Shown: piece by piece, positions 15,391 through 15,750 of the stretch | How positions within the stretch are numbered: the stretch's first letter is position 1 | Layout of the letters: each line of letters begins with the position of its first letter | From: Pseudomonas sp. SJZ079 | Lineage (GTDB): Bacteria; Pseudomonadota; Gammaproteobacteria; Pseudomonadales; Pseudomonadaceae | Direction of reading: 5' to 3' | DNA: 64,000 bases | NCBI RefSeq assembly: GCF_007993865.1 | Contig: NZ_VIUH01000001.1 | Span: forward strand, 310,001-374,000 | Program-made: the position numbers and the translations under genes | Notes under the pieces: model-generated | What the model was told of the DNA's origin: nothing | Database searches by the model: none | What the model saw: the letters and a program-made list of their open reading frames with translations, nothing else

Positions 15391-15495
15391 CCCAGGTATC
15401 CGCAGTCACTGAATAGGCAGAGGCAATCAGCCTGCACTATATCGCTAATGGCGACCACGCCAGAGGGCTACAGGCTGGAGGCATTCCTGGCGCAC

Positions 15496-15521
15496 AAAAA
15501 AAGGGGCGACCTAAGTCGCCC
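15496..15521 (-). terminator. Intrinsic terminator of ccoM
   Basis: On the minus strand GGGCGAC-TTAG-GTCGCCC is followed by C and seven T residues. It starts about 30 bases after the ccoM stop, making ccoM a monocistronic unit. Confidence 0.88.
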
Positions 15522-15553
15522 GAATTGCCTTGCGTGCCCATTGCCGGAGGGAT

Positions 15554-15670
15554 TCAGTGCGTCTTGCGCTTGTGCGAATCCTTCCAGATGAAATAACCGA
15601 CGCCGGCGAAGAACGCGACCATCAGGCCGACGGTGCCGATACCGGCGAGAACCACCACATCGATAAACAT
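15554..15670 (-). CDS. ccoM: cbb3-type cytochrome c oxidase small subunit CcoM (38 aa)
   Basis: A 38-residue single-span membrane protein read from the minus strand. It starts MFIDVVVLAGIGTVGLMVAF, continues GYFIWKDSHKRK and ends in a basic tail. This matches the CcoM subunit first seen in the Pseudomonas stutzeri cbb3 oxidase structure, where it contacts CcoN/CcoP and aids assembly or stability. AGGAGG lies 5 bases before the ATG. It has a perfect ANR box upstream and its own terminator, and is not linked to ccoNOQP in this window. Identification rests on remembered sequence likeness, which is strong for such a short protein. Confidence 0.85.
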   Translation of the reverse strand: MFIDVVVLAGIGTVGLMVAFFAGVGYFIWKDSHKRKTH

Positions 15671-15708
15671 GCTTGCCTCCTGCACCAGTCCTTGCTGGGA
15701 ATGACTGC

Positions 15709-15750
15709 AAGGTACGTGGCGGCGCGGCAACGGGCATTGATCTGGATCAA
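15709..15750 (-). promoter_or_regulatory. ANR/FNR-dependent promoter of ccoM
   Basis: TTGATCTGGATCAA (15737-15750) is a perfect FNR/ANR box (TTGAT-N4-ATCAA). A -10-like TACCTT lies at 15709-15714 on the minus strand, giving a start near 15702. The box centre then falls at about -41.5, the class II FNR position. This predicts oxygen-limited induction of ccoM. Confidence 0.8.

Follow-up and report, generated by a model that had tools for sequence, protein, structure and literature searches.

PhrS of Pseudomonas aeruginosa is an sRNA induced by low oxygen in an ANR-dependent manner, and carries a conserved open reading frame (ORF) of 37 amino acids followed by a 12-nucleotide element called creg; in the accessible parts of the literature the function of the peptide is called unknown (PMC9308961, PMC8395346, PMC8672173) and the encoded protein unnamed (PMC5521070). 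PhrS is known for the control of pqsR and CRISPR, and cyoA is also reported to be lowered by it. Its action on the CRISPR leader depends on creg and not on the ORF, such that deletion or point mutation of creg abolishes the effect in PA14, according to the available text of that study (PMC6700203). The main text of an Anr-regulon study makes no mention of PhrS or PA3305 (PMC6588701). CcoM is a subunit of the cbb3 oxidase of P. stutzeri, and the accessible portions of the papers that describe it (PMC10433244, PMC9264385) assign no regulatory-RNA role to its mRNA; proteomics in that species found more CcoN and CcoP in air than when oxygen was limiting (PMC10433244). SgrS/SgrT provides a further comparison, where one RNA is both the message for a small protein and a regulator. 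We found no relevant paper naming both PhrS and CcoM; a text match for the two names, within a partial coverage of the literature, gave unrelated papers only.

The window, by which we mean the whole 64-kb stretch of Pseudomonas sp. DNA that was analyzed, contains ccoM as a 38-amino acid ORF on the minus strand at 15670-15554, read directly from the sequence. We consider it very probable that this locus is phrS and that its peptide is CcoM, so that one ANR-driven RNA would be translated to CcoM and would also carry the creg regulator. The features of the locus are as follows.

15737..15750, minus strand: ANR/FNR box TTGATCCAGATCAA, perfect, with its centre at about -41.5
15709..15714, minus strand: -10 element TACCTT, 36 bases after the start of the box
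15676..15681, minus strand: Shine-Dalgarno AGGAGG, from the sequence
15554..15670, minus strand: ccoM, 38 amino acids, putative cbb3 oxidase subunit CcoM, from profile and structure-chain matches and a pN/pS of 0.265
15526..15537, minus strand: creg pairing element GCACGCAAGGCA in the 3' UTR, from the sequence, whose core is identical in 149 of the 153 distinct relatives
15496..15521, minus strand: intrinsic terminator, a 7-bp stem (15521-15504) and then C and seven T, from a terminator scan and the sequence
15495..15705, minus strand: PhrS sRNA family RF01673, model positions 1-212, covariance match of 184.1 bits
15822..15983, minus strand: gene for a small basic (lysine-rich) protein upstream of ccoM on the same strand, without a Pfam match

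The box, -10 element, AGGAGG ribosome binding site and terminator had all been proposed in the first-pass annotation, and direct reading confirms each of them together with their spacing. A class II FNR/ANR promoter has its box centred at -41.5 in combination with a -10 element. This geometry is found at ccoM, where taking TACCTT as the -10 places the centre of the box 41.5 bases upstream of a predicted start at about 15702. With the start set from the geometry of the box, the predicted transcript is monocistronic and extends from about 15702 to 15496, some 207 nt. A generic sigma-70 scan of the window found no promoter, and the single terminator given by a generic scan is no more than shuffles give (0.9). 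The small basic gene upstream is a frequent neighbour of phrS/ccoM, and marks the ccoM slot in many relatives.

The exact sequence TTGATN4ATCAA occurs once in the window, as the ccoM box, against 0.01 expected in shuffles. The box is not a chance occurrence, since 189 of 197 CcoM loci have such a box, scoring 8 or more of 10, where it would be expected (about 1% of shuffled upstream regions reach 8), and it is followed by a TAnnnT at a conserved offset. By group, such a box is present at 95/96 loci in the genus, 58/59 in the rest of the family apart from genus g5, 10/10 in g5 and 26/32 outside the family. Counting distinct loci that have the box, TAnnnT lies 35 or 36 bases after its start in 93/93, 52/57, 10/10 and 26/26, respectively, where the second figure is for the other family members. 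Which regulator reads the box is a separate question, because to our knowledge ANR and DNR boxes are not distinguishable by sequence, and DNR or another FNR relative might be the main reader. We regard that as distinctly unlikely, given that one of the three FNR-model matches in the genome of this strain, on contig C24, is over the cut-off and has the cysteine pattern of the oxygen sensors (cysteines 15, 18, 24 and 117). ANR control, as first suggested from the letters alone, is thus supported by the conserved promoter geometry, by this FNR/ANR protein with sensor cysteines in the same genome, and by the putative ANR site upstream of P. aeruginosa phrS in the available text of a paper on that organism (PMC12101431).

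The identity of the transcript is provided by a covariance match to RF01673 at 15705-15495 that spans the full model and exceeds the gathering score of 37 by a wide measure (E = 5.9e-48). Conversely, translation of the reading frame within the Rfam PhrS consensus (38 codons) gives a peptide scoring 67.2 bits against the CcoM model NF041600. The genus sample yields 90 CcoM places (in 89 of 99 genomes) and 90 PhrS matches above 100 bits, and the two coincide in all 15 cases compared by eye. Because the transcript is RF01673 at full length and the Rfam consensus itself encodes a peptide that scores as CcoM, the ccoM mRNA and PhrS are, on sequence grounds, very probably one dual-function RNA, with CcoM as the PhrS peptide. 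The likeness to P. aeruginosa PhrS covers the whole-length covariance match, the ORF, creg following the ORF, the terminator and a putative ANR site upstream, and the difference is that the peptide of that RNA goes unnamed and without assigned function in the accessible text, whereas here it matches CcoM. The locus had been described as a stand-alone micro-gene; the description is incomplete in that the transcript is the PhrS sRNA with a conserved 3' element, so that the RNA would also be a regulator.

The 38-amino acid ORF scores 74.5 bits against NF041600 (NCBIfam), where the equivalog cut-off is 40, and matches chain N of PDB 5djq with E = 2.4e-14 over 35 residues of the 36-residue chain. 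We take 5djq to be the P. stutzeri cbb3 oxidase. A Pfam search of the ORF gave nothing above cut-off (FixQ at 12.7 bits against 29). The profile and structure-chain matches support the assignment of the product as CcoM, a putative cbb3 subunit whose close homologue is 5djq chain N, and the profile search against CcoM proteins found the similarity that the first-pass annotation had predicted. Its remark that the gene is too short for usual gene calling needs one correction, since NCBI now has the model NF041600, by which annotation can pick up the gene. The genome has one ccoM, on contig C1. On contig C24 matches above cut-off were obtained for each of ccoN, ccoO, ccoP and ccoG, and a 61-amino acid ORF that matched no NCBIfam model occupies the ccoQ position; the ccoNOQP-ccoG genes are thus on a different contig from ccoM. 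Some 0.5 kb upstream of ccoN there is also an ANR box that matches at 9 of 10 positions (L309 1715-1728, contig C24). A related genome (G014) contains two ccoM-like copies about 4.8 kb apart, the first (L027) with a changed creg and the second (L140) with no normal start or box found.

Might the RNA be the functional product, and the ORF a relic? The accessible PhrS literature is mostly concerned with the RNA, the ORF is not needed for the CRISPR effect, and ORF-less forms exist. Yet the CcoM frame has a pN/pS of 0.265 over 154 loci (without correction, over 4000 randomly drawn pairs whose divergence is high, with pS = 0.68, and leaving L140 out here and in the column-conservation set), which indicates selection at the protein level. 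Moreover, loci outside the family retain the frame although they lack creg, and a close homologue of the peptide has been resolved as one chain of a PDB structure. A relic ORF is therefore very improbable.

How general is the combination of CcoM and creg? CcoM was found in 89/99 genomes of the genus, 78/99 of the family, 37/145 of the order (29 over the family cut-off and 8 under) and 0/14 controls, the genus, family and order samples being overlapping sets that all share the genome of this strain. PhrS matches were found in 97/99, 94/99 and 28/145 of the same samples, with 96, 82 and 22 over cut-off, and there is a match below cut-off in 1/14 control genomes. The creg core follows the ORF at 94/96 loci in the genus and 56/59 in the rest of the family apart from g5 (150/155 together), and was found in 0/10 CcoM loci of g5 and 0/32 outside the family. 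The ANR promoter and the CcoM frame do reach outside the family. Searches of plasmid and phage records found nothing similar.

Where present, creg hardly varies. The core is exact in 149 of 153 distinct sequences; eight of the 12 columns are fixed by the anchoring of the alignment, and the other four are at least 99% conserved without it. Near-variants are found in L027 and in L186-L188, the latter being three loci of g7 with the variant ATGCAAGGC, which may be a natural alteration in what creg pairs with. Third positions of the ccoM codons are free to vary, with a mean commonest-base frequency of 0.59, while creg is invariant. Taken with the pN/pS value this indicates that protein and creg are selected separately. 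The coding and regulatory modules are separable.

The strong conservation of creg might have another origin, if ccoM were an ordinary mRNA here with the 12 nt conserved for termination, Hfq binding or stability, and not for pairing with targets. An exact search for the creg complement in 19 genomes, including that of this strain, gave 41 places, and in the latter there was none besides phrS itself. As a direct creg target we tried cyoA, and rejected it. Pairing was scored ungapped, with no bulges, against 30 cyoA leaders, these being the top-scoring loci of a search through 40 genomes, of which 35 gave a match over cut-off. The longest runs were 7 nt in 17 of the 30 leaders and 8 nt in 13, and 128 of 600 shuffled-seed controls reached at least 9, so the leaders pair no better than shuffled seeds. 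Both results are in keeping with an ordinary mRNA. Against it, creg is not part of the terminator stem and is preserved at 22 loci without an intact ORF (a biased set, fetched as PhrS matches), and its deletion or point mutation abolishes the CRISPR leader effect in PA14 in the accessible text (PMC6700203). On balance we think it unlikely that creg serves the message alone, and favour a pairing role for it. No CyoA match over the family cut-off was found in the genome of this strain (G000), and the species may lack cytochrome bo3 oxidase.

The coding part is lost from a number of loci. Eight of the 10 CcoM-less genomes of the genus have a PhrS match (G026, G031, G051, G056, G066, G080, G086 and G094), with none found in G023 and G043. 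The creg core persists in 14 of the 21 CcoM-less genomes of the family; the PhrS match in G110 and G137 is weak and lacks the core, and no match was found in G126, G133, G147, G149 and G151, of which G133, G147 and G149 are less than 90% complete. The creg sequence ACGCAAGG is kept in 22/22 loci without an intact CcoM (L198-L219, eight from the genus and 14 from the family), a count that is biased because the loci were fetched for matching PhrS, and the terminator also remains. L222, a second weak match, and L223, outside the family, have no creg core. At 14 of the 22 loci (L200, L204-L206, L209, L210, L212-L219) a box of at least 8/10 lies 78-99 bases before creg, giving compact predicted RNAs of 68-90 nt, with start sites set from the box, in which a 5' stem is followed by creg and the terminator. 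L207 and L208 share this compact layout with weak boxes. TAnnnT is seen by eye at an offset of 35 or 36 in 15 of these 16 compact loci, L212 being the exception, and 5' stems were found in 9/9 chosen sequences, with z from -2.06 to -4.28. When nine loci were given to Rfam at its cut-off, L198, L205, L207 and L209 were reported and L204, L212, L213, L216 and L218 were missed.

The remaining loci are less regular. L198 has a decayed ccoM frame, and L201, L203 and L211 also fall outside the compact set (L201 and L203 are not compact, and the boxes of L203 and L211 are 7/10). At L199 there are two tandem PhrS-like RNAs, their creg elements about 680 bases apart, with truncated CcoM-like frames of 22 amino acids, in a genome with no ccoN over cut-off. 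L202 has one 22-amino acid CcoM-like frame and no good box, and its genome keeps ccoN. At ten of the 22 loci (L198, L200, L205-L212) the slot is that of ccoM in the window, with the small basic gene preceding the element. That gene was not found near L204 and L213-L219 (genus g6), nor in the 8-kb P. oryzihabitans and P. rhizoryzae records searched (L224, L229, L233, L234).

A scan of a collection of 84 980 species for a box, 55-85 nt and creg returned 25 stretches, 15 in Pseudomonas and 10 in other organisms. A terminator follows creg in 15/15 of the Pseudomonas stretches, compared with 0/10 of the others. One of the Pseudomonas species concerned, P. oryzihabitans, is described as oxidase-negative in the available text of one report (PMC5362990); others include P. 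rhizoryzae, P. viridiflava, P. trivialis, P. poae, P. triticifolii and P. typographi.

The ORF-less loci could be decaying remnants without function. Such decay would fit the weak boxes of L202, L203, L207, L208 and L211 (7/10), the decayed frame of L198, the lack of compactness of L198, L199 and L201-L203, and the failure to find creg in seven of the 21 CcoM-less family genomes. It does not readily account for a good box with a compact 68-90-nt RNA in 14 of 22 loci, for the positioning of TAnnnT (two weak-box loci included), for the 5' stems in every sequence chosen, or for the terminator after creg in all 15 Pseudomonas records. We therefore think decay rather unlikely as a general explanation. 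The compact forms may be termed mini-PhrS.

On a tree of rapA, comprising 40 chosen rows (11 without an intact ORF and 29 with CcoM, some rows being partial, and g6 represented by G187 alone on a long branch), the state of the ORF requires six changes, at least five of them on starred branches. A single clade for the ORF-less rows is rejected (p-AU 8.8e-57). Since the CcoM frame is the older, these changes are most simply losses. Of the family genomes sampled, 77 have both CcoM and ccoN and 16 have neither, while one has CcoM alone and five have ccoN alone (P = 2.9e-13, Fisher, kinship ignored); ccoN is thus still present in five of the 21 CcoM-less genomes. In these counts a genome with weak ccoN matches alone (best E 9.3e-27 or worse) is scored as lacking ccoN, a ccoN match may represent a fragment, and the group labels and lists of presence and absence were compiled by hand from search tables. 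In the genus no more than one ccoN match is found in 10/10 CcoM-less genomes versus 6/89 of the others, the genome of this strain among the six (P = 5e-10, Fisher, kinship ignored). Among independent pairs ccoN changes in the same direction in 4.3 of 5 and in none oppositely (P = 0.06-0.25). Loss of the ORF goes with loss or reduction of cbb3, an association that is not significant after correction for kinship.

These data suggest a scheme for the function of the locus. At low oxygen ANR would become active and bind the box at -41.5, generating the monocistronic transcript. From its own ribosome binding site the 38-amino acid membrane subunit CcoM would be made, to join the cbb3 oxidase encoded elsewhere. 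In the same RNA, between the stop codon and the terminator, the 12-nt creg could base pair with other RNAs. The higher levels of CcoN and CcoP in air in P. stutzeri speak against this scheme, so that a rise of the CcoM protein at low oxygen is a tentative part of it. The sequence identity, promoter geometry, conservation and loss pattern come from the present analysis; ANR dependence, creg function and Hfq binding are taken from the accessible papers on P. aeruginosa, and CcoM as a cbb3 subunit from those on P. stutzeri. For this organism itself, transcription, translation and targets are what we infer.

In evolutionary terms, PhrS is probably at root the mRNA of a cbb3 subunit. The ANR promoter and ORF would be old, being found in other families of the order, with creg added to this older ANR-controlled ccoM message within the Pseudomonadaceae (or, alternatively, lost in g5). 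On the assumption that an ORF once lost does not return, the protein part would then have been discarded on at least five occasions, mostly in lineages where cbb3 is lost or reduced. This would leave mini-PhrS forms, roughly 70-90 nt long, whose 5' stems are new and which often have an ANR-like box; some of these forms are missed by the Rfam cut-off. Unlike SgrS/SgrT, therefore, the protein here would be a subunit of a respiratory complex, and relatives keep the RNA element after the protein has gone.

The locus offers a candidate answer to a question stated as open in the accessible literature, that of the function of the PhrS peptide, and it would connect riboregulation under oxygen control with the oxidase by which scarce oxygen is used. 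Deletion of phrS would remove an oxidase subunit, and deletion of ccoM may remove a regulator. If so, the phenotypes of phrS and ccoM deletions so far mix the effects of RNA and oxidase. A ccoM knockout in P. stutzeri reportedly changes anaerobic growth; if that change is real, loss of the PhrS RNA is a candidate cause. The natural ORF-less forms would provide ready-made cases of separation of function with which the targets of creg may be found.
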